From Mya arenaria (Eukaryota > Mollusca > Bivalvia > Myida > Myidae): a stretch of DNA of 64,000 nucleotides. Below, one piece after another: positions 34,000 through 63,415 of the stretch. The first letter of the stretch is position 1, and every line of letters starts with the position of its first letter. The notes beneath the pieces are model-generated. The model did not search any database. It saw nothing but the letters and a program-made list of their open reading frames with translations, and was not told the origin of the DNA. The stretch spans positions 36,025,725 through 36,089,724 of the forward strand of contig NC_069126.1 in NCBI RefSeq assembly GCF_026914265.1, in the 5' to 3' direction. The position numbers were made by a program, and so were the translations under genes.

Positions 34000-35590
34000 C
34001 TGAAAATTATAAAAGAGGAAACATATTGAGGTTTAACTCAGTGAATTTATTGAAGAATTATGTCAATATTTTTTTTTATGTTAGTACTCGTAGACTTTTT
34101 TGACTATTTTTCTTTGACATGTTTTCGTTCATAATTGAACTTATGTACAAACTCTCATTATAATATGTCTACGACTAATGGAGCTGTGTATTGGTAATTG
34201 ATCAAACTGTTTGTAGAACAAACTAGAATGGAGAACCATCATTTCTAGGTCACCAGCGCATTGTTATGTTTTGATAAGTTATCATATACCTGACTTGAAA
34301 TAAAGAGTTTTGTATATTGTATCTTGTAAAATGAAAGTAACGTTACCACAGAAATAAATAATGACACGAAATATATACCACACAGTAGGATAGGCCGACC
34401 AAACTGTATGTGCTAGCTTGAACTTGTCTTATTTGCTTGACTCTTTGCAATTTTGTTTTTGTACATAGACGGGTTTTTGGTGCAAGACATGGTTCGTGTA
34501 GTTCCCCTTACCATAACCTGTTATCGTTGTATAGTTTTCAAGGATAATAGGTGGCAGATCTATTAACTAGATAGCTAGATAATTATCGCGAAACTTAAGT
34601 GGTTAACACGGAACAATTCGCGAACGCTATCTGGTAATCTCACGGCAGTAATATGCCACCGTACAATCGAATTACGTGAGACAAAACTGTGTTACCTTGT
34701 GATAAATTAGTTTTACACCGCAACATAATTTACATATATTGGTTAAACTAGGTAAGACTGTAAACAAAATAACGTTAACTCACCGTTTGAGCAACAAACA
34801 CAATTCATCTGGTACTGAAAAGGAACAATAAGATTTCTTGAAATACTACGTAACTTAAAAAAATAAAAAAACTACGAAATGTGATTGTGATGTGTCGATC
34901 CCTAGACGTGCCTTTAGAAAAAACAATTATGAAATATAGTTTCACGTACAGGAACCGATATCTAGAATAATGTACAACTATCATGGTTTAATAAAATTTA
35001 AAACTAGTATTATTTATTTACCAACATATCCGGTTATTAAACTTATGATTCTACTTAATATAAACATATTTCAAACCTGGCTGTGCAGATGTTGTTTTCG
35101 TTAACTGCGGTTCTTTCGATTGTTGCGCTGACTCGGTGCTTCTTTCCGAAACTACTTTTAAGGCCATTGGTTGTTCCACAGCGATTGCGTCGATTCTCAA
35201 ACTATTTTCATTTCCAAAAGTACTGTCGGTTTTATGCATAGCCATCTTCTCATTGTTTAAAGAGTTTGCAGAAGTGTTACTTATATTCATTTGTTTTGGC
35301 TCCAGCGTTTCACTCAAAAACATTATTGAATCAACATCACTTCTTGTAATGTCATCGACGGCATAGCTGTCATTGCCAACTTCAGTTTGATGTTTTGCCA
35401 AAGATGCCATTTGGTCATTACTGGCGTCAGTTTTTGCTTTTCCAGCCGATTCTATAACGTTTTCAAGTGCAGTTTTAAGGTTCAAATTCGGCTGATCCAG
35501 CTTGTGTTGACCTATATTGATATGTCTGCTGTTTATTTCAACACAAACACTTAATAATACTACGCACACATATTTCGTATTGAAACACAT
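33939..35590 (-). CDS. Secreted protein with Cys-bearing tail, paralogue A (201 aa)
   Basis: Three exons: 35077-35590, 34784-34814 (31 nt) and 33939-33999; GT/AG borders, phases 1 and 0, stop TAA. Residues 1-23 look like a signal peptide (YVCVVLLSVCVEINS). The middle, residues 24-170, is hydrophilic and Ser/Thr/Asn-rich with no cysteine. The tail VPDELCLLLKRQG then PLVAGCLKTGRLGIWN has two cysteines. The start at 35590 is chosen because paralogue B starts there; an ATG 57 bases upstream is not conserved. A polyadenylation signal AATAAA (minus) lies at 33816-33821. No known family recognised; likely extracellular. Confidence 0.78.
34784..34814 (-). CDS. Paralogue A exon 2 (31-nt)
   Basis: Acceptor TTTTCAG, donor CG|GTGAGT. 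Adds PDELCLLLK with split codons at both ends; same size and borders in B. Confidence 0.75.
35077..35590 (-). CDS. Paralogue A exon 1
   Basis: 171 codons plus one base, donor CCAG|GTTTGA. Encodes the signal peptide and hydrophilic region, ending TKTTSAQP where paralogue B has the Thr tract. Confidence 0.78.
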
Positions 35591-35694
35591 AATTTCCTCA
35601 CAATATACCTTCAACTTGAACAATAAAAAACACACGTTTGTAAACACAAATCTACTGCAGCAAAACCACTATTCCTTTTCAAACTGTTACAATC

Positions 35695-41000: not shown

Positions 41001-43291
41001 ATATTTTTGCGTTTTCATCTATTAAATACAAAGTTATAATATTGTTAAAAGTAATTAATATTTTCGATAAATGCATTATTTAGTAGTTGAGGCTGTATCA
41101 CTCAAATTTTTTGTTTCTTTTACATATGTGTGTATTAATTTTGACTAAGAGTGTCACTTTAAAATACTCAAAATGCCTGATCATAGATTTGTTAAAAAAT
41201 GCCATATTATGATGTTTAATGTTGACTAGATTGATTGACTTGATTTTTTGTTAAAAATACGTTTGTGTCTACAATCCATAGGTTTTGGTTACATTTGGGA
41301 TAGTCAAAACGTTCTGAAATGTTTTTTTATAAAGTCGTTTACAAAAAGATGTATAAACAAGACTGCTAAGTCAAGTTAGAATTAGTAGAAAATTATGCTC
41401 ATATTACGCTTTCAAGTCATATTTCGGCTACGAAAAATATGTAGATGTATCAAATATCCGAAGATTTAGATTTATATATGTATGTTTTACAACTAGTTCG
41501 TATGATTTGGAAATTGAAAAGAGTCGTTATACTAATATCCCAAGAGAACGAAGAAACTGTAAAGTATGCCAATTTGAATGTTTTGAAGATGAATACCACT
41601 TTCTTTTTGTTTGTGACTTCTACGAGGATCTGCGAACCCAATATACCACACAGAAATATTATATAAATTGTTAAACAAGTATAGAATACATACATAGAAT
41701 ATATGTCATCATCTAATGTTGCTATAATTAAAGGCGTACTATGTACATAGTTGTACCATGCATTTAATAAAAGAAAAGTTCGATTTGAAGAATGAAATTC
41801 TTAAATCACGATGCATATAATAAAATATTGCTGTATATTTGTTTTATGGTGTTTCATTGAACTGTTGCACAAAATTGAAACTTCATACTGTATATTTATA
41901 TTTTGAAATGGGCCGGTGGCCTAAGGGTAAATAAACTTTGTCATTTTCATTGTCATGGTCATTGAGTGTTTATACTAACCAAACAAAGCAGCGTCATAGA
42001 ACAATAGTGATATTTATAGTTTTAATAAAATTGGGAGTCCGGACTTAAATGTCAGAAAAAATGTTCGAATTATGTTTTAATTCGTTTGCGATTTTCTGTA
42101 CCTGTACAGTCTTCTGAGAAATTAAATCATTACAAAGCAAACATACTGAAGCCATCGAACTACATCCGTACAAATGAGACTAAATCAATCGTGTTACCTT
42201 GTGACAAATTAGTTTTCCACCGCAACATAAATTACATGTATTGGTTAAACTAGGTAAGAAACAAAATAACAAAACAACTCACCGTTCGAGCAACGAACAC
42301 AATTCATCTGGCACTGAAAGGGAACAATAAGATTTCTTGAAATACTACGTAACTTCAAAAATACATGAACTACAAAATACAATTGTGATGTGTCGTTTGT
42401 TAGACCGGAATTTCAAAAAAAAAAAAATCTAGCATAACGTACCGTTATCTTGAATAATGATTATCGGGTTTGTACAACTATCCCGTTTCAAGAAATAAAA
42501 ATAAGTAATTGTAATATACCGAAATATCAAACTTCTTATAATTATACACAAAATAAATATTCTATGTTACCTGGCTGAACAGATTTTGTTGTTGGCGTTG
42601 TTGTTGTTGCTGCTGTTGTATTTGTTGTTGTTGGCGTTATTGTTGTTGTTGCTGCTTCTGTAGTTGTTGTTGTAGATGTTGTTGTTGGCGTAGTTGTTGT
42701 TGCTGCTGCTATAGTTGTTGTTGTTGGCGTTGTTGTTGTTATTGCTGCTGTTGTTGTTGTTATTGCTGCTGTTGTTGTTGTTGATGATGATGTTAAGGTT
42801 GTCGTTAACTGTGGTTCTTGAGATTGCTGCGTTGACTCGGTGCTTCTCTCGGACACTATCTTTAAAGCCATTGGTTGTTCCACAGCCAGTGCATCGAATG
42901 TCAAACTATTTTCATCGCCCAAAGTGCTGTCGGTTTTAGGCACATTCGACTTCTCATTGTTCGTAATTGCAGAAGTCTTCTTCTGAGGCAACGGTTCCCC
43001 GCCGTTTTTATCAGTTTGGCTGGAAAAATGTATACTCCCTGTATTGGCATCTAAATCAGTTAGATTTCTGCCATTGCCAGCTTCTGTTTGATATATTGCC
43101 AAAGATGACGTTTGGTCACTACTGGCGTCAGATTTTGCTTTTTCAGCCGATTCTATACCGTTTTCAACTGCAGTTTTAAGGTTGGAATTCGGCTGATCCA
43201 ACTTCTCTTGACCTATGTTGATATGTCTGCTGTTTATTTCAACACAAACACTTAATAATACTACGCAGAAATATTTTGTTTTGAAACACAT
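37979..43291 (-). CDS. Secreted mucin-like paralogue B (270 aa)
   Basis: Three exons: 42571-43291, 42283-42313 and 37979-38039, with the same splice phases as paralogue A. Signal peptide MCFKTKYFCVVLLSVCVEIN, then a Ser/Thr/Asn-rich region about two-thirds identical to A. Next comes a Thr-rich tract at residues about 163-235 (runs of TTTT with Ala, Ile, Pro), absent from A and typical of O-glycosylated mucin domains. The conserved tail VPDELCSLLERQG then FPLVSGCNKSGRLGIWN follows. Between exons 2 and 3 the intron is 4.2 kb and has collected an M1 MITE, a foldback micro-element and a LINE relic; A's intron is 0.8 kb. Function unknown; a mucus, shell-matrix or haemocyte product would fit but is not shown. 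Confidence 0.78.
38085..38440. mobile_element. MITE family M1, copy 3 (decayed)
   Basis: cttggaatgagcaaatttcg, taagactgctgacaaaagat and tgaagctttaaag match the interior and end of copies 1 and 2; the left terminus is lost. Confidence 0.5.
38560..39800. repeat. Diverged intronic tandem duplication
   Basis: 38645-38890 and 39470-39715 align (gggcaatggtaaattgtc, gatgtttgtacaaaaaa, cctcgttaagttttttt). Lies in paralogue B intron 2. Confidence 0.6.
39222..39291. mobile_element. 70-bp foldback micro-element with 8-bp target duplication
   Basis: Two about 34-base arms (tacggaatgccgttcgggcc...) with one mismatch around gcga. Flanked by tactctac at 39214-39221 and 39292-39299. It sits inside one arm of the intronic duplication and is absent from the other. 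Confidence 0.78.
39910..40205. mobile_element. Inverted-repeat element family M2, copy
   Basis: ctatggtggcactttactgc at the left, then cttcgcgataattttta and taactagataagattcgtgt. Related sequence at 34540-34670 (gctagataattatcgcgaaa) and 47400-47970. Confidence 0.5.
40380..41965 (+). mobile_element. LINE relic in paralogue B intron 2
   Basis: 40395-40490 reads AFVEIQKGFDSIDRNPLWHV, an RT block. 41545-41665 reads NCKVCQFECFEDEYHFLFVC, the C-terminal CxxC...H...C motif shared with the 19-kb and 48-kb LINEs. The 3' part gggccggtggcctaagggta, then aataaac and tcattttcattg repeats, looks like a LINE tail. Many frame breaks. Confidence 0.6.
42283..42313 (-). CDS. Paralogue B exon 2 (31-nt)
   Basis: Acceptor CTTTCAG, donor CG|GTGAGT. 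PDELCSLLE with split codons. Confidence 0.75.
42571..43291 (-). CDS. Paralogue B exon 1 with Thr-rich tract
   Basis: 240 codons plus one base, donor CCAG|GTAACA. The Thr tract is coded by a GTT/GTTGCT-like triplet repeat in plus sense (42585-42785), so it can change length by slippage. A plus-strand poly-Leu frame here is a shadow. Confidence 0.8.
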
Positions 43292-44109
43292 TTTCTTTAT
43301 AAAATAAATGTTAACTTTTCAATTTGAACACAAACTCAATCTTTTGCACACACTGATCTATATCTATATCAAAACCACTGTTCTTTTTCAAACTTTATCT
43401 TACATTCTCAAAATTTTCATCCTTTTTAAATCTGCCAAGTATTTCATACTTTGAACCAAGTGTAATTCGTTTCAGTAGGCTTCAGGGATTTTGTATCATC
43501 TGTTGTCCTACTAAACAACACCTCAAAGCATTTGAAGGCGTTACTTTGTTTAAAGGCAAAGCATTAATCACTTGTTTGACACTCACGTTTCGATTAGAAA
43601 TAAAATGTAGATTTGTACGACAAGATGGTGCACACATGGAAATGTCGAAAACACTCGATCATTTTGATGAATGCTACAGACACTTAAGGCAATATGACGA
43701 TTTATAAATGTAATAATTCGGTGAGCAAGCCCTATATGCGTCAATAAGTTGCGCGGCGAATAGAAAATAAACAACCAGTACGTCCTAAATGTGTCGTGTG
43801 TTATATACCGTATGATCATTTCGTTCTGTTTTTTTTTTCAGTGGAATGTGGTTGGTTATGAGGTTTGGACACACATGAGCTCCGCTTTGTTGTTTTCTAC
43901 ATTGTTTATGTATATCATTTCTACTTTAAAGTGCTCTTGGTATCAGTCTACAATTCGCGATCTTGTGTCCAAATTTTACCATTTACATCGAGATTCTTTA
44001 TTTTCATATATTCTTGCTGAAAAATAACAGAGCTTGGATTTCTAGACGGACCTACGTCACTTTAATTCGATTAAAGAGTATATAGAGTTGCAATTGATTG
44101 AGTGAATAG

Positions 44110-44650: not shown

Positions 44651-44865
44651 TAGTTCGTATTTTTCAAATTATATCATTAGTTAAATGTAGTGTTTAGCTT
44701 GTATTTATTGATTTAAGTTTAAATTGATTGCAAGAGGAGTGTATTGTTGCAAACATAATTAAGATTCCCAAGAGTTAAGTCTTATTACAATTAACCGCTA
44801 AATTAAATTATTACGCGATCTACTACACGATCTTTATTGGATTAATGGGCTTGTTCACGTATTTC

Positions 44866-45270
44866 GCATTGTTTTATTGGATTTCTGGTCTTGTTCCCAT
44901 GTTTCGCATTGTATTATGGGGTTTCGGGGCCTGTTCCCGTATTTTAGATTGAATTATTGGATGCCAGGGCTTTTTCCCGTATTTCGCCTTGTATTATTGG
45001 GTGTCAGGGCTTGTTCCCATTTTTCGCATGGTATTATTGGATTTCTGGGCTTGTCCCAGCATTTCACATTGCATTATTGGGTTTCTTGGCTTGTTCCCAT
45101 AGTTCGCATTGTTTTATTGGGTGTCATGGCTTGTTCCCGTATTTTGCATTGTATTATTGGGTGCCAGGGCTTGTTCCCGTATTTTGCATTGTATTATTGG
45201 GTGCCAGGGCTTGTTCCCGTATTTTGCATTGAATTATTGGGCGCCAGGGCTTGTTCCCGTAGTTTACCAT
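44866..45270. repeat. About 41-bp minisatellite, about 10 units
   Basis: Unit gcattgtattattgggtgcc, then agggcttgttcccgtatttt. Lies about 0.6 kb past the stop of tetraspan copy 1 on its transcribed side. The homologous array at 60727-61616 has about 22 units. Confidence 0.9.
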
Positions 45271-45893
45271 GTGAATTTTTGAATAGATATAAAATAGTTT
45301 TACTTTATGTCTCTCAAACAACATGCAAACATCATTTGAATTTATGTTCATGGTTGCAACATCAGTTTTGCACCAGTTTCACCCAAACAATGGCCAGTAA
45401 ACGCTTAATTACTTATCAGGGTCTTTTTCGATTATGGTATACGTCGTGAAATATCATAGCATCGTAATTGTAACTTAAACACATAGCTTAAACAATTACG
45501 GCCCATATTAGTTGTATTGAAAGAGAAACAAAATATTGAACATACAATTATAAGCGAATGCCGCTATATGTTCGTAAGCCAAGCACACCGGTACTACCAT
45601 ACACAGACAAATGTATAGCATAAATATAAATACAAAAGCATCATCTCCACGCCAAGCTTCGAACGTAATATACAAGGGCAGGCAAGCAACTACTCCGTAA
45701 ATTGTCCTTCTGGTAATGCATATGATGAGTTAATAGGTGTGGCTAAAACCCTTCCCTCGACATTTGGCATTATTCGGTACCCGAGACTCTTCAATTCGTA
45801 TAATAGTATGTGTGACACAGCATTCGGGTAGAAAATGAAATAGTTCCCGGAGCGCAAGAGGGAAGGGGTATAACACCCTCTGAAGTCATTTGT

Positions 45894-46051
45894 TTATTTC
45901 CCTTTGCCCATCCAGTCCAAGAGTCCGAGGATTCCTGCGACCAGCATCACGATACTACATATGATGGCCAGAGCAAAGCTGCCCGAGTATTCGTCGTATG
46001 GATAGAAAGCCTCTGCTCCCCATATAATCACACCCAGAAGAATGCATCCAC
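45894..46051 (-). CDS. Tetraspan copy 1, last exon (helix 4)
   Basis: 158 nt, GCILLGVIIWGAEAF, YPYDEYSGS, helix FALAIICSIVMLVAGILGLL, DWMGKGK and TAA. Acceptor TCTTCCAG. Confidence 0.88.
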
Positions 46052-46831
46052 CTGGAAGACATAATTATTTGAATTTATGGAAATGAGTCAAATACCCTGC
46101 ATTTCCTTTGAATCATGAAGTTTTCATTAAAAGCTGTATATATTCAACTCAGTTTTCCAATACAATAAAAGACACCGGGTACACAAGAACTTACAATCAA
46201 ATAATCGTTAATAATGACAAACTGGAAATAAATCGTTGACGAATACAAAACGCAAATTAATCAACACTTCAGTTGCGATTTAGTTCAATTGAAGTATTAT
46301 TCTCGTACAACCAGCCCGGCAATGCAGCATTGTATGTTTTATTAACAAAACCACAATGCATGCACATACATGACATAGGAAAGCCACATTCTCAATGGAG
46401 AATCGACCGCGTACTACTCAATGTTTCTCATAGTCAGTGTGAATCAATGTAGCTGAGTTTTATCTACTACTGGTAATTGTTGATAACAGATAAGTCTATT
46501 TTCATAATAATACAGGCTAATAATTTTTACTTTGTCATCTACAAAACAACTCCGTAATTATTCAAATGTTTCATTGACATGGAACGAGTCAACATTATTT
46601 ACATAAGGCGTAAAAAAGGTTTCTCGGCCTACCCTATTTTTTGCCCAGACACTTGACATTTTTATTGCACTGAGATCAATCGCTTATCACTTATTGATTT
46701 TTTTTCTTATGCATATAATTTATAGTTTCTGGTTAAAGAGATATCTATATTAAATAAAAATGGTTTTTTCCGACCTACCATGGGGGTATGAAACCGGAAA
46801 CAAACATATGATAATTCACTCTACTACTTAC

Positions 46832-46972
46832 ATGCACAGAAGCTCAAGATGAAGGCGATGAGTTTAAGAACTTTCATGTCCTTGACAAAGATGACAACGA
46901 TGACCAGAATTAAGGCTGCGATAATAAGCAGGATTCCAATCACTTCAAAGGCTTGTGTTGCCTCCCACCAGC
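46832..46972 (-). CDS. Tetraspan copy 1, exon 2 (helices 2 and 3)
   Basis: 141 nt, WWEATQAFEVIGILL through VKDMKVLKLIAF to LSFCA; acceptor TTTTCAG, donor CAT|GTAAGT. Confidence 0.88.
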
Positions 46973-47975: not shown

Positions 47976-50900
47976 AAGTTTTTAACCTAATACTGCGTTT
48001 GTTTGAAATTCTTGAAAGGGACATTTGTAAATATCAAGATTTAGGGGTCGTTTTTGCTGTTGGTGATATGAACGCACGAGTTGGCCAAAAGATAGATTAT
48101 ATCGAATCGGACTGTTTCAATGAATACATAGATAGTGACGATTATGTTCCAGATAGGCGGCTACTGCGCACCAGTATGGACATGGTTCATAATAGACAAG
48201 GATTGCAATTACTTGATCTATGTAAATCAACGGAAATGCGAATATGCAACGAACGTATTGAAAATGATGGCAAACATACGTACTTTTGTAATGCGGGATG
48301 TTCGGTCATTGATTATCTTTTGTGTAAAGAGTCTGCTTTTAAATGTATTAACAATTTTGAAGTACTAGATTTTAATCCGTTTTCGGACCACGCGCCGCTA
48401 GGGATAAGCTTAAAGGGGCAACCTCAAAGGACCAGTGATGCGGGCACAGAAAAGTCGAACTATATTAAGTGGGACTCTGATAAGAAAGAATTATATAGAC
48501 GAAATATGATATCGAAATTGCCAATTTTTAATAATATCATAAATGATTGTTCAATTCAAAGTAGTGACGATATGGACAATGTTTTAAACCGTTTTGTAAA
48601 TGTAATGAACGAGGTTACGCAACCATTATTCTGCAAAGAGCGAAACACGGTTAAACGTACCCGTCTAGCAAAAACGCAGGTTATGTATACAAATGAATGG
48701 TTTGATGGTAATTGCCGAGTTGCAAAACGTTCATATGAGAATGCATTACGGGACTTTAATAATCTTAGAAATAATGATAATAGAGTACGACTGGTCGGTG
48801 CTAAAAAGGCCTTCAAGAGCATTACGAAGAGGACCAAAACGACGTTACAGGCATGCAAAGATTAAAGAAATTGAACGATTGAAAGGCAAACAGCCGAAAG
48901 AGTTTTGGAAATATTTTGCTAAGAAATAGCAAATGAAAGAACAAAATGTAGACGTTAATGAGTTCAAAGAACATTTTGAAAATTTAGCGAGCCAAATCGG
49001 ACCACAGTATGAGAGAGATTCGGAGAATTTTTGTTCTACGGAGCACCCGACTGACACACCGGCATTTCCTGAGCTAGATAGGGAAATAAGTGTTGACGAG
49101 GTTAGACGGGCTATTAAGGGACTGAAACGGGGAAAGGCTTATGGGACCGACCTTTTGATTAATGAGTTTTTCATCGAAGCAGGGGACATAATCATTGCAC
49201 ACTTAACGGACATTTTAATATGATTTTCAATACAGGTTATTTCCCTTCGTTATGGATGCAGGGCATTGTTGTACCTATCTTTAAAAAGGGCGATGATAGC
49301 AATGTGAATAATTACAGAGGAATTGCCCTATGCAGCTGCCTGTCCAAACTTTTCACATCGGTTTTAAATAATAGGCTGAAGAGTTGGGCCGAAAAAAATA
49401 GCAACATATCAGACGCACAGTTTGGATTTCGTCAGGGATTATCAACTACGGATGCTGTCTTCTGTTTGAATAGCATCATACAACACATATTCTTTAAAGG
49501 AAAACGCCTATATGCGGCATTTATTGATATGTCCAAATGTTTTGACAGTGTATATAGAAATGGTCTGTGGTACAAAATTTATAAACAACTTGGTTTACGG
49601 GGCAAAATGTTTAGAATTATTAAGAACATGTATGAAAATGTACGAGTACAGGTACGGCACTGCAATAGTTACTCCGATTTCTTTGATATAGCTACCGGCT
49701 TGAAGCAGGGAGAAATATGCTCACCTTTGTTATGGGCCATGTTTATCGAAGATCTAGAATTATTTTTACAATCTAATCCAGACAGTGGAATCACGTTGAA
49801 ACAGATAACTTTGATATTATTCCTTTATGCCGACGACATGGTAATATTAGCGGAAACGACCGAAGATCTACAACGAAGTTTGAACAGTCTATCCGGTTAT
49901 TGCAAGCGTTGGGGTCTGCAAGTCAATGTTGATAAAAGTAAAATCATGGTTTTTAGAAAACGAGGAAGGCTGAAACGTGGTGAAAGTTGGATCTATAACG
50001 ATAAAGTAGTAGAAATAGTTGACCAATTCACGTACCTAGGAACGATATTTAGTAGTAACGGCCAATTCAACAATAACCAGCAAATGCTAGCGGGAAAAGC
50101 TTTAAAAGCTATGTATACTTTAAGTGGAAATTAAAAGGGCTTTGATTTGAGCCCAAAGACACAGTGTGACCTTTTTGACGCGTTTGTTGGTTCGATATTG
50201 GGCTATGGGTGTGAAATATGGGGATATTTCAATGCAAAAGAATTGGGAAGAGTGCATCTGAAGTTTTGCAAGCGTATGCTAGGTGTAAAACTTTCAACAA
50301 GTAATGTAGGTGTTTATGGTGAATTAGGACGCTACCCATTACATATTATAAGACAGACTCGAATGGTGAAATATTGGAATATTAAAGTCATCAATACTAA
50401 CAACTGTGTAATTAAGGCACTTTATGACGAATTAGTTGCTGACAACAATATTAGACATTTAGATAACTGGTCGTCAACGATAAAGGACCTACTTTATAGA
50501 CACGGTTTCGGGAATGTATGGGAAAATCCATCCACTACAAATCCTGACTGTTTTGCTCAATTGTTTAAGCAGCGGCCTATTGATCACTTCCGCCAAGAAT
50601 GGCACACTTCCCTCCAAAATAATAACGTACTTACTCTTTATAAATATGTAAAACCAAAGATTGAATATGAACAGTATCTTGACGTTATGAACTCAACGCG
50701 TTATCGACATGTGTTAAGTCAACTGCGACTATCATCACATAAACTCAGAATTGAGACTGGTCGTTACGGGAGAAACCGAGAAGAGAGACATGCTCGACTA
50801 TGTGTTCTTTGTGATAGCAGGGACATTGAAGATGAGTTTCACTTCATGTTCAAGTGTGATATATATAAAAGCATAAGAAAAAGATACATAAGTCGTTATT

Positions 50901-51300
50901 ACTGGCAGAATCCAAGTATGTTTAAGCTTATAGGACTGTTACAAAGTAAAAATAAGAATGTATTAAACAATCTTTCTTGTTATATAAATTGTGCGATTAA
51001 AATTAGAAATAACTTAAACAATGCCTAAAGTAAGACTGTTTCTGTTTTATGCTTATTGATACATATGCTATAAAAAATATAGTAACATAATAATAAATGG
51101 TTTTCTGAACTTTTTATTACTACCCTCCACATTGTTATCTTTGTATTATTATATGTTTTGTTTTATTTTTAAATGTATTATTTGTATGTGTATGTGTTTG
51201 TTTTTGTATGTATGTACATTTCTGTGATTGTTTGTATGATGAGAGACTATGAAGTCTAAATCAAAATAAACTTCTGTTCTGTTCTGTTCTGTTCTGTTAT
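47976..51300 (+). mobile_element. LINE, 5'-truncated, nearly complete coding
   Basis: Endonuclease C-terminal half (47999-48865: GDMNARVG, SDHAPLG), then a linker, RT (49220-50134) with FGFRQGLSTTDA, AFIDMSKCFDS, GLKQGEICSP and the catalytic YADDM at about 49825. The C-terminal domain (50147-51028) has RRLGKL-type ELGRYPL and CVLCDSRDIEDEFHFMFKC. Roughly three frame interruptions lie between the pieces. The 3' end is (ttctg)n at 51272-51297. 5' truncation and a short tandem tail are normal for target-primed insertion. It sits in tetraspan copy 1 intron, same clade as 19.1-20.6 kb. Confidence 0.88.
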
Positions 51301-51418: not shown

Positions 51419-51503
51419 TTGTAAGATTTTTAAACTTTCCACAGCTTTTATACGAGTTGGAATTTGCGTTGACCTTACTACAGCCCCTAAAGAGGGACCC
51501 ATA
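51419..51503 (-). CDS. Tetraspan copy 1, exon 1 second part
   Basis: YGSLFRGCSKVNANSN to CGKFKNLT plus one base; donor ACAA|GTAAGT. Holds both loop cysteines. Confidence 0.75.
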
Positions 51504-51507
51504 GGTC

Positions 51508-53058
51508 AGCGTTCGACACTAACGGGAGTCCGGTAGTCCGAGACTCCTAAAATTCGGCTCGGACTACCGGATTTTCCGTCTAGGCAGTCCGTCGGACTCC
51601 TTCATTTCAAAATCCAATTGTACACAAATCGTATCCGAAGGGTAAAAGTATCCGAAAGCTCGTATGGTTATTTTGCGACTCGTCAAATCGTTATCATTTA
51701 GACGCTCTTTAAAGTAGTAAGTGACGTCATAGACTGGTATTCATGTATCTTTTAAAGTTTGTAATATGGTAACTAAATCGATAAAACGCGTCAAACGGTG
51801 TTTACAAAAAATATTCCTCGTTGATTTTAGATGTAAACAATGTTTATGTCAACGGTAAAATGGATTTCGCCACCGGCAGCGAAAATAAAAGAACTGAAAA
51901 AGAAAAAATCATAAAGAGTTTGTAATTTATACATAAAGGATATTTAGCAAGCATGATTAAAACAATTGTCTTGGCTGATGTTTGAACTGACATCTGTATG
52001 AGTACCTGACTGTAGGTAGCTTTGTCACTGTGCGCTCTAACGTGCGATTGAAAGCCATCAAAAATCTTTTAAGGGCCATGATAATATTATAAGCTAAGAA
52101 AATGCAAAAAAGGGAAAAATAATTAAGTTAATCACCAGCTGACTGCTTGTTAATTCAGCTGAACAAAGCTATCTTTGACAGGTAGTGCATTCTGTTTATG
52201 GATGCTGAACATTATTCAGAAATAAGGACAGTCCTACACAGACTATGTCACAACGTACCAAGCTTATATTGCAAAGTCTGTTAGCATTGACACAACATAT
52301 AAGGCATGTCAGTGTCTCATTGCACTGATTGCAGATGAATGTTCCAATTAAACAAAATTCAGTATTTGATAATGCCCCCGTTCAATTCCCTTATATCTGA
52401 TGGCTCCACAGCCGCTTCACAAGAGGCCAAGGTTCTATATGCTAGATCGTCAGTTCATGGCAATTTTTTCAAGTCATATTAGAATCTATAAGATAAATAG
52501 TTTCAGTCATGTTCATGTTATTTGAATAAAACAATTAAAATATAACTTAAATGTGCTCTCAGAATACAAATCTCTAGTTTGCCTTTCAGAAATGAAATAC
52601 CAAAGGCTCTGTGAAATCATTGAACAAATAGTCATCAGTGCTCCAGCCAAATGACAATTTTGATGTGAATTAAATTAGCCTTTATGGGACACTTGCAAGG
52701 GCCAGTACTCAACTTTTTATGTAATTTGATGTTACTTCTTTCAATACGGTACTTAGACTTTGTTACCTCAGCTGTTAACTTTAAGTCAGTGTCAAAAGTA
52801 TGTACATTTATAACTCATTTCTGGACATTGACTGGCAAACAAAAGGGCACAGCAGGGTGTAGTAAAATGGGAACCGGGTACTTGAAAAGGGCAGCGGGTG
52901 TCCCAACCTGTTATTTAGGGCTAGCTGGAGCATTGAGTCAATAAATTTGAATAAATGTTCTAATTATCCTGGACTCCTTAATTTTATGCCGGACTCCTTG
53001 ATTTTGGAATTAAGGAGTCCGGTGGACTCCTTCTCTAAAAGTCTTAGTGTCAAACACT
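51508..53058. mobile_element. 1551-bp inverted-repeat element (hAT-like) inside a coding exon
   Basis: Ends agcgttcgacactaa and ttagtgtcaaacact are inverted with 13 of 15 matching. Flanks cataggtc (51500-51507) and gttaggtc (53059-53066) agree at 6 of 8 positions, as an ageing 8-bp duplication. Subterminal blocks of ggactcc/ggagtcc cluster at both ends. No transposase coding; non-autonomous. Confidence 0.75.
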
Positions 53059-53062
53059 GTTA

Positions 53063-53191
53063 GGTCTCGACTCCCGAATTGTCAGCACTGAACCAATAAG
53101 GAATAGCCAGAGCTAGAAGCTGTATTACGAAGGCAACTACCAGTAAAACGAACGTTATCTTCAAAAACAAAGAACTATTTCCAAAACCCAT
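53063..53191 (-). CDS. Tetraspan copy 1, exon 1 first part
   Basis: ATG then GFGNSSLFLKITF, first helix VLLVVAFVIQLLALAI, PYWFSADNSGVET. Stops in TAA at 53060-53062 because of the insertion. Confidence 0.75.
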
Positions 53192-54133
53192 TTTCTATTT
53201 TGTAATTAAGCCCCGATATAAAATGAATGCTAGATCGCCGAAGTCACACATGCAACTGAATCAAACGTCACACCTGAGTCTGTACACAGACGGTTACTGT
53301 GTTTTTGTTTATTCCAACCCATGGTTACTGAATTTCTGATATCGTTCGTGCCCAGGCAAATTTACCCGGGCGAAATAATTTCCCTTTCATGCGCAGAGAT
53401 GTCCCGCAAACCCGTAATGTAAAATTGATTGATTTGCTGATTTCGTATTACTATCACCTTATGGCGTGAGGGCGTCATATATAAGTAGGTGAGATGGGTT
53501 ATTGATCAAAAACCCTTTATCATCATTGATGCCAAATATTTCAAGTAGCATTTAAAATGGGCGTGGCGTGATTTTCAGCTTTAAGTAACGAATAAGGCCA
53601 CTTATTTTGTGGTAGTAGTTGCCTTGTGTGTTTATCGTTGTTGTGTTGTTTTTTTTTGCCTGATCGTCCTCCAATATTTTGATCTTTGTGACATTTGCAA
53701 ATACCTTGAACTTAGTAGTACGTCTGGCAAATCTCTCTTGCCTTTAGATTATTTGTTTTATAGTATTTGATTTATAGATATACGTATATGTAACTCACAA
53801 ATATACAATCGGCTCATTTGATATTGTAAGAGTATTCAGTTTACCCCGTTTATGAAATGCAAGATATTATTTCGCTAGAGTGACCCCTTTTTAGTCGTTA
53901 GTCTGTGAAGGTTAATTATTGTTGAACGAGAATAAAAAGACGAAAATATGTTTAAATGTTACTTATTTTATTTGTTATAATTTACCAACAATGAAGCAAT
54001 ATAGTTACATTTGCGACGCCATCCGTAGTAGTCTTAAGTTATGTAAGTTACTGTTAGTTATGTTAGTGTAAATTTTGATGTTGTCAGGCCTAAAGAAATG
54101 CAAAAAGAGATCCCTGTTCTTCTGCGCGTTCCA

Positions 54134-60560: not shown

Positions 60561-60726
60561 ACATACCCACGATAACTACAACAAAAAGTGTCAATCTGTC
60601 TTGGCTGCTTTTTTTTTGGCATTTCACTTTGGGTTCCACGGTTTTGAACAATTGTGTTTAAACTTGTAATGTGTTTTTTTTATGCGATTTCTTGCTTCGT
60701 TGATTAAGGCTACTTAGATTCTTTGT

Positions 60727-61616
60727 TTTTCGCATTGTGTTATTGGGTTTCTGGGCTTGCCCCCGTATTTGCATTGTATTATTGGGTTTCTGGGCTTGCC
60801 CCCGTATTTGCATTGTATTATTGGGTTTCTGGGCTTGTCCCCGTATTTGCATTGTATTATTGGGTTTCTGGGCTTGTCCCCGTATTTCGCATTGTATTAT
60901 TGGGTTAATGGGCTTGTCCCCGTATTCCCATTGTATTATTGGGTTTCTGGGCTTGTCCCCGTATTTGCATTGTATTATTGGGTTTCTGTTCTTGCCCCCG
61001 TATTTGCATTGTATTATTGGGTTTGTGGGCTTGTTCCCGTATTTGCATTGTATTATTGGGTTTCTGGGCTTGTCCCCGTATTTGCATTGTATTATTGGGT
61101 TTCTGGGCTTGTCCCCGTATTTGCATTGTATTATTGGGTTTCTGTTCTTGCCCCCGTATTTGCATTGTATTATTGGGTTTGTGGGCTTGTCCCCGTATTT
61201 CCATTGTATTATTGGGTTTCTGGGCTTGTCCCCGTATTTGCATTGTATTATTGGGTTTCTGGGCTTGTTCCCGTATTTCGCATTGTATTATTGAATGTTT
61301 GGGCTTGTTCCCGTATTTCTCATTGTATTTTTGGGTTTCTGGGCTTGTTCCCGTATTTCGCATTGTATTATTGGATGTTTGGGCTTGTTACCGTATTTCT
61401 CATTGTATTTTTGGGTCTCTGGGCTTGTTCCTGTATTTCGCCTTGTATTATTGGGTTTCTGGGCTCGTATTTTGCATTGTATTATTGGGTTTCTGGGCTT
61501 GTTCCCGCATTTCGCCTTGTATTATTGGGTTTCTGGGCTCGTATTTTGCATTGTATTATTGGGTTTCTGGGCTCGTATTTTGCATTGTATTATTGGGTTT
61601 CTGGGCTTGTTCCCAT
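60727..61616. repeat. About 39-bp minisatellite, about 22 units
   Basis: Unit gcattgtattattgggtttc then tgggcttgtccccgtattt; 39 bases equals 13 codons, so several frames stay open on both strands. Last units slightly longer or truncated. Homologous to 44866-45270 and at the same distance from the tetraspan stop. Confidence 0.95.
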
Positions 61617-62242
61617 AGTTTTCCTTGTGAATACATATAAAACAGTTTTAATTTATGTCTCTCAAACCTCATACAAATCATATGACTTATTGTTCATGGT
61701 CGCAACATCACTTTTGCACATAGTTTCATCCAAACAATGGCCAGTAGACGCTTAATTACTTAACCGGGTCTTTTTCCGTTATGGAATCCATCGTGAAATA
61801 TCATAGCATCGTAATTGTAACTTACACACATAAGCTGAACTAATTATGGTCCATATTAGTTGGGAAGACAGAGAAACAGAACTTTCAGCATACAACTATA
61901 AGCGAATGCCGCTATATCTTTGTAAGCCAGGCACACCGGGACTAGTAATACACAGACAAATGTATAGCATAAATATATATACAAAAGCATCAACTCCACG
62001 CCAAGCTTCGAACGTAATATACAAGGGCAGGCAAGCAACTACTCCGTAAATTGTCTTTGTGGTTATGCATATGATGAGTTAATAGGTATGGCTAAAACCC
62101 TTCCCTCGACATTTGGCATTATTCGGTACCCGAGACTCTTCAATTCGTATAATAGTATGTGTGACACAGCATTCGGGTAGAAAATGAAATAGTTCCCGGA
62201 GCGCAAGATGGAAGGGGAATAACACCCTCTGAAGTCATTTGT

Positions 62243-62400
62243 TTATTTCCCTTTGCCCATCCAGTCCAAGAGTCCGAGGATTCCTGCGACCAGCATCACG
62301 ATACTACATATGATGGCCAAAGCAAAGCTGCCCGAGTATTCGTCGTATGGATAGAAAGCCTCTGCTCCCCATATAATCACACCCAGAAGAATGCATCCAC
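62243..62400 (-). CDS. Tetraspan copy 2, last exon
   Basis: Acceptor TCTTCCAG. Same 51 residues and stop as copy 1, one silent base change in 158. Confidence 0.9.
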
Positions 62401-63415
62401 CTGGAAGATACAATTATTTGAATTAATGGAAATGAGTCAAATACCCTGCATTTCTTTTGAATCATAAGGTTTTCATTAAAATCTGTATATATATTCAACT
62501 CAGTTTTCCAATACAATTAAAAAAACCGGGTACACAAGAACTTACAATAAAATAATCGTTAATAATGACAAACTGGCAATAAATCGTTGACGCATACAAA
62601 ACACAAATTATTCAACACTTCAATTGCGATTCAGTTCAATTAAAGTATTATTCTCGTACGACCAGTCCGGCAATACAGCATTGTATGTTTTATTAACAAA
62701 ACCACATGGCATGCACATACATGACATAGGAAAGCCACATTCACGATGGAGAATCGACCGCGTACTTTTCAATGTAGCCAGTGTGAATCAATGTATTGGA
62801 GTTTTATCCACCACTGGTAATTGTTGATAACAAATAAGTCTATTTTTATATTTATACAGGTTAATAAGTATTTTCACTTTGTCGTCTGCAAAAACACTCC
62901 GTGGTTATTCAAATGTTTTATTGGCATGGTACGATCCCACATTATTTACATAATTAAGGCGTAAAAATGCTTTCAGGACCTAGCCTGTTTTTGCCCCGAC
63001 AATAAACATAGTTATTGCCCTGAGCGATATCGCTTATCATTTGTTTGATTTTCGCTCTTATAAAAGTTAAAAATGAAGTGTTTTGGGCTTTTAACAATAC
63101 CAGTAATGTTAATACTGGTTGTAAAGTTGTTCTTAAGCATATAATTTATAGTTTTATGGTTACAGAAATGTCTATCATAAATAAAAAGGTTTTCCGACTA
63201 TTCTGCAGTATTTTTTGGGGTTATGAAGCGGAAACGAACATATGCTTTTACCCATAATTCACTCTATTACTTACATGCGCAGAAGCTCAAGATGAAGGCG
63301 ACGAGTTTAAGTACTTTCATGTCCTTGACAAAGATGACCACGATGACAAGAATTAAGGCCGCTATGATGAGCAGGATGCCAATCACCTCAAAGGCTTGTG
63401 TCGCCTCCCACCAGC
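62243..63415 (-). CDS. PMP22/claudin-like tetraspan gene, copy 2 (3' two exons)
   Basis: Exons 63275-63415 (141 nt) and 62243-62400 (158 nt) match copy 1 in borders, phases and length. The protein differs from copy 1 by one residue (Ile to Val in LKLVAF) across both exons: 11 of 12 base changes in the first are silent, and the single change in the last is silent. That indicates selection to keep the protein. The 5' exon with helix 1 and the Cys loop should lie past 64000. The intron between is 0.87 kb. This is probably the working copy. Confidence 0.88.
63275..63415 (-). CDS. Tetraspan copy 2, exon with helices 2 and 3
   Basis: Acceptor TTTTACAG, donor CAT|GTAAGT. WWEATQAFEVIG to LSFCA. Confidence 0.88.

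Follow-up and report, generated by a model that had tools for sequence, protein, structure and literature searches.

A non-autonomous DNA transposon interrupting coding exon 1 in one member of a tandem pair of PMP22/claudin-family genes of Mya arenaria

Pseudogenes that arise when a transposon enters one of two duplicates leave one broken and one intact copy, and terminal inverted repeats starting CAG or TAG are a habit of hAT elements. Classic hATs (the Ac, hobo, Tol2, and Buster types) are defined by 8-bp target site duplications and have short inverted repeats and non-autonomous derivatives. CAG ends are described for many hATs, Mar being one example (PMC3517528), and hAT5 is presented as unusual among them in making 5-bp duplications where the others make 8 (PMC9004415). 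ProtoRAG and Transib, as described in PMC8289069, have CAC ends and GC-biased target duplications. The published Mya arenaria assembly is given as 1.22 Gb in 17 phased scaffolds (PMC10663159). The locus considered here lies in a window of 64,000 bases of this genome (C5:36025725-36089724), and our genome searches covered 1,216,080,610 bases in 18 contigs. The broken and the intact copy found at this locus appear to differ in no way in kind from the pseudogenes described above, the break here being recent and perhaps still polymorphic.

The interrupted gene and its second copy

Copy 1 of the gene lies on the minus strand in three coding exons running from 53191 to 45894, the first of which is split by an insert at 51507-53059. 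The exons of copy 2 were located by tblastn of exon pieces against the window plus 40 kb of neighbouring sequence, the hits running over 70966-70751 for exon 1, 63416-63276 for exon 2, and 62401-62246 for exon 3. On the window's scale, the exons are as follows.

53063..53191, minus strand: first section of copy 1 exon 1, from the start codon through codon 43 (MGFG...GVET), then TAA at the junction
51419..51503, minus strand: second section of copy 1 exon 1 (YGSLFRGC...NLT), with a GTAAGT donor next
46832..46972, minus strand: copy 1 exon 2, open, with a TTTTCAG acceptor and a GTAAGT donor
45894..46051, minus strand: copy 1 exon 3, including the stop codon
70753-70966 (C5:36096477-36096690, outside the window), minus strand: copy 2 exon 1, uninterrupted, 214 bases up to a GTAAGT donor
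63275..63415, minus strand: copy 2 exon 2, in the window
62243..62400, minus strand: copy 2 exon 3, in the window, including the stop codon

Read as an empty site, with the insert taken out, copy 1 translates to a protein of 170 residues, which bears out the in-frame rejoining of the two exon halves claimed in the preliminary description of this DNA; the stop that it had placed at the junction is also there, a TAA standing directly after residue 43. In a protein with the layout of a claudin, this point would fall in the first extracellular segment. The coding exons of copy 1 hold no disabling change beyond the insert, as would be expected if the insertion were very young and equally if copy 1 works in another allele.

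Copy 2 is whole, as had been proposed, with exons 3 and 2 in the window and exon 1 beyond it. Both halves of exon 1 are contiguous in copy 2 (70838/70837, tblastn edges) and match copy 1 at 100% over the 29 residues past the site and at 97.7% over the 43 preceding it, also by tblastn. At the site, the plus strand of copy 2 reads ...CCCATAGGTCTCGAC..., which is the flanks of copy 1 minus the insert and minus one flank copy. Because copy 2 exon 1 is uninterrupted there, no intron belongs at the insertion point. A copy 2 intron at exactly this place had been named beforehand as one finding that would refute the proposed reading; the exon is continuous by tblastn, and such an intron was rejected.

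Spliced, copy 2 encodes a protein of 170 residues, which differs from that of the empty-site copy 1 at two of them (residues 18 and 110). It matched Pfam PMP22_Claudin (PF00822) at 38.6 bits (cut-off 26.7, E 1.4e-9), covering positions 3-160 of the 161 in this PMP-22/EMP/MP20/claudin profile, while weaker Pfam matches all fell below their cut-offs (Amastin, for example, at 19.9 bits versus 27.2). A search of the PDB by sequence gave 0 matches at E<=1, and Rfam gave 0 matches over the window at the gathering threshold. The profile match and the second copy support the original suggestion that a tetraspan gene in the PMP22/claudin family has been duplicated.

Coding changes between the copies comprise 16 synonymous and 2 non-synonymous ones, unevenly spread (3 and 2 in the two parts of exon 1, 12 in exon 2, and 1 in exon 3), and with dN at 0.005 versus dS at 0.152 both copies have therefore been under constraint for most of their history. 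Matching blocks between the copies lie at offsets of about 16.3-18.1 kb and are 72-94% alike, the 94% block containing the second part of exon 1; a further block at an offset of 22.6 kb (86%) carries the match on across a LINE. Stretches adjoining exons 3 and 1 (45600-46099 and 53060-53559) are 94.9-99% alike, apart from one 100-bp step at 94.0%, and other stretches 74-90%, a pattern that would fit constraint near the exons and perhaps gene conversion between the copies; part of the similarity between the copies may be allelic or gene-converted in origin. A genome search with the 501 bases from 53060 on gave two candidates, both of which were scored and which are the query itself and copy 2, and the protein of exons 2-3 has only weak matches besides the pair, the best on C10 (E 0.0017). 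Based on these sequence comparisons, the gene pair is most likely a true tandem duplication.

The LINE lies on the plus strand at 48000..51298 in intron 1 of copy 1 (left edge approximate) and has a TTCTG tail; its reverse transcriptase matches RVT_1 at 49166-50134 (E 1e-36), with the frame split at 50134/50135. The matching place in copy 2 is without it, and copy 1 has therefore received two insertions since the duplication. A minisatellite of 39-40 bp is found 3' of exon 3 in both copies (44834-45272, about 11 units, and 60725-61628, about 23 units).

The insert, its repeat family, and its age

The features of the insert are given below.

51507..53059, plus strand (orientation arbitrary): non-autonomous DNA transposon, 1,553 bp, CAG...CTG, delimited by whole-length genomic relatives with differing flanks
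51507..51522, plus strand: left terminal inverted repeat CAGCGTTCGACACTAA, from end comparison and a genome-wide pattern count
53044..53059, minus strand: right terminal inverted repeat CAGTGTTTGACACTAA, 14/16 as the left end
51502..51506, plus strand: left 5-bp target site duplication TAGGT, by the family rule of 5 bp
53061..53065, plus strand: right 5-bp target site duplication TAGGT, an extra T at 53060 standing between element and duplication

A DNA search of the genome with the insert gave 45 matches from the 40 scored among 802 candidates, 24 of which, the window's own included, span 1-1553; there are thus at least 23 other whole-length matches, at 92-98% identity. The relatives that were fetched show the same terminal letters and then different sequence outside. 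The insert is a member of a repeat family, which upholds the original claim of a transposable element within a coding exon, here exon 1 of the PMP22/claudin-family gene. Both ends begin CAG (CAGCGTTCG / CAGTGTTTG). Counted genome-wide, the 16-base pattern of the ends, CAGYGTTYGACACTAA, gave 365 occurrences versus 3 for its reversed control, and the insert is itself a repeat, so the inverted ends exceed what chance would give. Such ends had been reported already, and they are present, but the edges needed correction, the element beginning one base earlier and stopping one base later (51507-53059), with the terminal 16 bases agreeing at 14.

The flanks had been described as near-identical over 8 bases. 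Six of the eight letters do agree, but the target duplication is really an intact 5-bp TAGGT with one extra T, and the 8-base register came about because the first C of the element equals the next base of the gene. Another way to read the flanks of this copy is as a 6-bp duplication carrying a single change (ATAGGT/TTAGGT). A 6/8 flank match can thus mislead: once the wider repeat family is read, what looked like a worn hAT footprint of 8 bp proves to be one of 5 bp that is still intact.

For the target duplications, the flanks of 40 copies, the window's included, were tallied; 10 were dropped with one or both ends not locatable, leaving 30, among which L017 and L018 have common flanks and represent one insertion counted twice. 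Exact duplications were of 5 bp in 23 of these members, 6 bp in 2, and 7 bp in 1, with none in 4; exact 8-bp duplications were found in 0/30. When the flanks were re-paired at random, exact 5-bp matches averaged 0.80 and never exceeded 5, versus the 23 observed. The four members without a perfect duplication were the window copy, which scored 0 owing to the extra T that puts its duplication out of exact register, L006, whose ends were wrongly located, L025, whose 5-bp match is shifted by two bases, and L035, with no duplication.

A sister family with elements of about 1.2 kb is more numerous and has nearly the same ends (CAGTGTTCGACACTAA / CAGGGGTCGACACTAA); genome-wide, its partner end pattern was counted 239 times versus 0 for the reversed control, and the four members examined have duplications of 5 bp (L081, L083, and L085) or 6 bp (L084).

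The insertion had been called ageing, a description at odds with its intact 5-bp duplication and with private substitutions at only 9 of its 1,553 bases. The window copy has a terminal branch of 0.0072 in a 25-member tree, with L002 as its sister at a distance of 1.68%, whereas half of the silent divergence between the gene copies is about 0.076. By this comparison the duplication long predates the insertion, which would fall within about the final tenth of the time elapsed since the duplication if rates are alike. The C5 members, namely the window copy, L002, and L003, lie within 1.5 Mb, the near neighbours being 0.18 and 0.97 Mb from the window copy and on the same branch. These three are closer to each other than random sets (permutation 0.009; 24 members, 3 pairs, the set being chosen after seeing the tree), which is a hint of local transposition.

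Superfamily of the element

The preliminary description had taken the insert for an 8-bp hAT-like element. With 23/30 exact 5-bp and 0/30 exact 8-bp duplications, a classic 8-bp hAT was rejected, and the element is therefore not of that kind, though it likewise has CAG ends and short inverted repeats and is non-autonomous; it is at best of hAT5 type. With hAT5 and its deletion derivatives the insert family has both the 5-bp duplications and the CAG ends in common, and hAT5 would be the best fit, as a guess. Unlike hAT5, the insert has no transposase or coding remnant and no autonomous partner was found, and membership is a guess for that reason also. Ten of the longer open frames of the insert gave 0 Pfam matches at E<=1, and no transposase coding was seen in the insert family or in the sister family. 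An autonomous hAT partner was sought at 30 places, taken from 150 scored PF05699 places (793 further candidates being unscored), and none has insert-type ends around the domain; L056 and L080 merely carry a neighbouring piece of related elements, and L086 has only its last 30 bases in common with the insert. Similarly, five longer end-pairs (L087, 3.8 kb; L088, 3.0 kb of a 3.9-kb pair; L089; L090; and L091) included no autonomous copy, being interrupted members of both families or a piece of one, with a longest stop-to-stop frame of 109 residues. With no transposase at the 30 hAT places or in the five longer end-pairs, the superfamily is therefore a guess. Unrelated sequence, in stretches from about 0.6 to at least 2.3 kb, lies inside L087, L088, L089, L090, and L091, as if from nested elements.

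The 5-bp duplications, and the failure to find a hAT partner among the 30 PF05699 places, are also what one would expect of an element from another 5-bp superfamily, such as Transib/ProtoRAG, or from an undescribed one. We consider this unlikely; Transib and ProtoRAG need CAC ends, and both ends of the insert start CAG, and their duplications are GC-biased, whereas 184/270 letters here are A or T (a strand-doubled tally in which most loci are counted twice). Still less probability is given to the proposal that the insert and its sister family form a clan moved by a non-hAT transposase of an undescribed 5-bp superfamily that is still locally mobile.

Fate of the interrupted copy

Based on these data, we consider it very probable that a tandem duplication was followed by the recent insertion of a 1,553-bp non-autonomous transposon into copy 1 exon 1, giving a null allele while copy 2 stayed whole, the transposase being supplied in trans and most likely of hAT5 type. 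Under this reading, the duplication produced two copies of a PMP22/claudin-family gene with three coding exons, and a cut-and-paste element later entered exon 1 of copy 1, duplicating TAGGT and placing an in-frame TAA right after codon 43. Copy 1 as assembled would then yield just a 43-residue stub or a decayed transcript, which would make this allele null, and copy 2 would continue to make nearly the same 170-residue protein and cover the loss. The transposase that mobilised the insert would be encoded at another place and would most likely belong to hAT5. The silencing of copy 1, which had been asserted earlier, may fairly be inferred from the stop at codon 44. The event is of an ordinary kind and well preserved, and, in this haplotype at least, the allele would be null.

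Three other explanations bear on this reading. The two copies could be alleles of one gene set side by side by the assembly, the insert then being simply heterozygous; bivalve genomes are very heterozygous, the two proteins are 168/170 alike, and several exon-adjoining 100-bp stretches are 94-98% identical. This is nonetheless very improbable given the dS of 0.152, the ordered blocks over about 13 kb (44.8-57.7 kb) that are just 72-94% alike with large unshared stretches between the copies, and minisatellites and introns that differ in length. Alternatively, the insert might be spliced out as a new intron, leaving a near-normal copy 1 protein. DNA transposons have given rise to introns elsewhere, and when all single GT-AG introns whose donor lies no further than 120 bases into the insert were listed and scored with splice-site matrices, 24 removals kept the frame to the end of the gene. 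The TAA comes before any donor within the element, however, and a splice donor must therefore be in the exon. The best in-frame pair sums to -1.7 and gives 134 residues, a loss of 36, and the only near-full-length option listed (172 residues) has a donor of -9.7 and a sum of -12.7, versus donors of 5.3 and 5.1 and acceptors of 3.6 and 5.0 for the gene's own sites under the same matrices. These low scores make a rescue by splicing unlikely, copy 2 has no intron at the site, and the spliced-insert alternative offered at the outset is, for single GT-AG schemes, scarcely credible.

The insertion may, in contrast, be a segregating or heterozygous allele, a polymorphism likewise offered at the outset, with an intact copy 1 in the other haplotype and in other animals, and here we regard the chances as evenly balanced. 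The assembly is described as one phased haplotype of one wild, heterozygous Mya arenaria (PMC10663159), and the 9/1,553 private changes, the intact 5-bp duplication, and the otherwise open exons of copy 1 are all in keeping with such an allele. This possibility is compatible with the preferred reading of a recent insertion giving a null allele, which concerns this allele. The locus is useful in that a transposon broke one member of a young, constrained duplicate pair in a way that is clean and can be dated, and the insertion is a ready presence/absence marker.

A second tandem pair is present in the window, consisting of related open frames at 35051-35668 and 42542-43318 (minus strand), both with CVVLLSVCVEINSRHINIGQ near the start. 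The two gave 0 Pfam matches at E<=0.01, their DNA is about 75% alike over about 1.5 kb, and one of the frames contains a long TTG-repeat stretch, mostly coding T.
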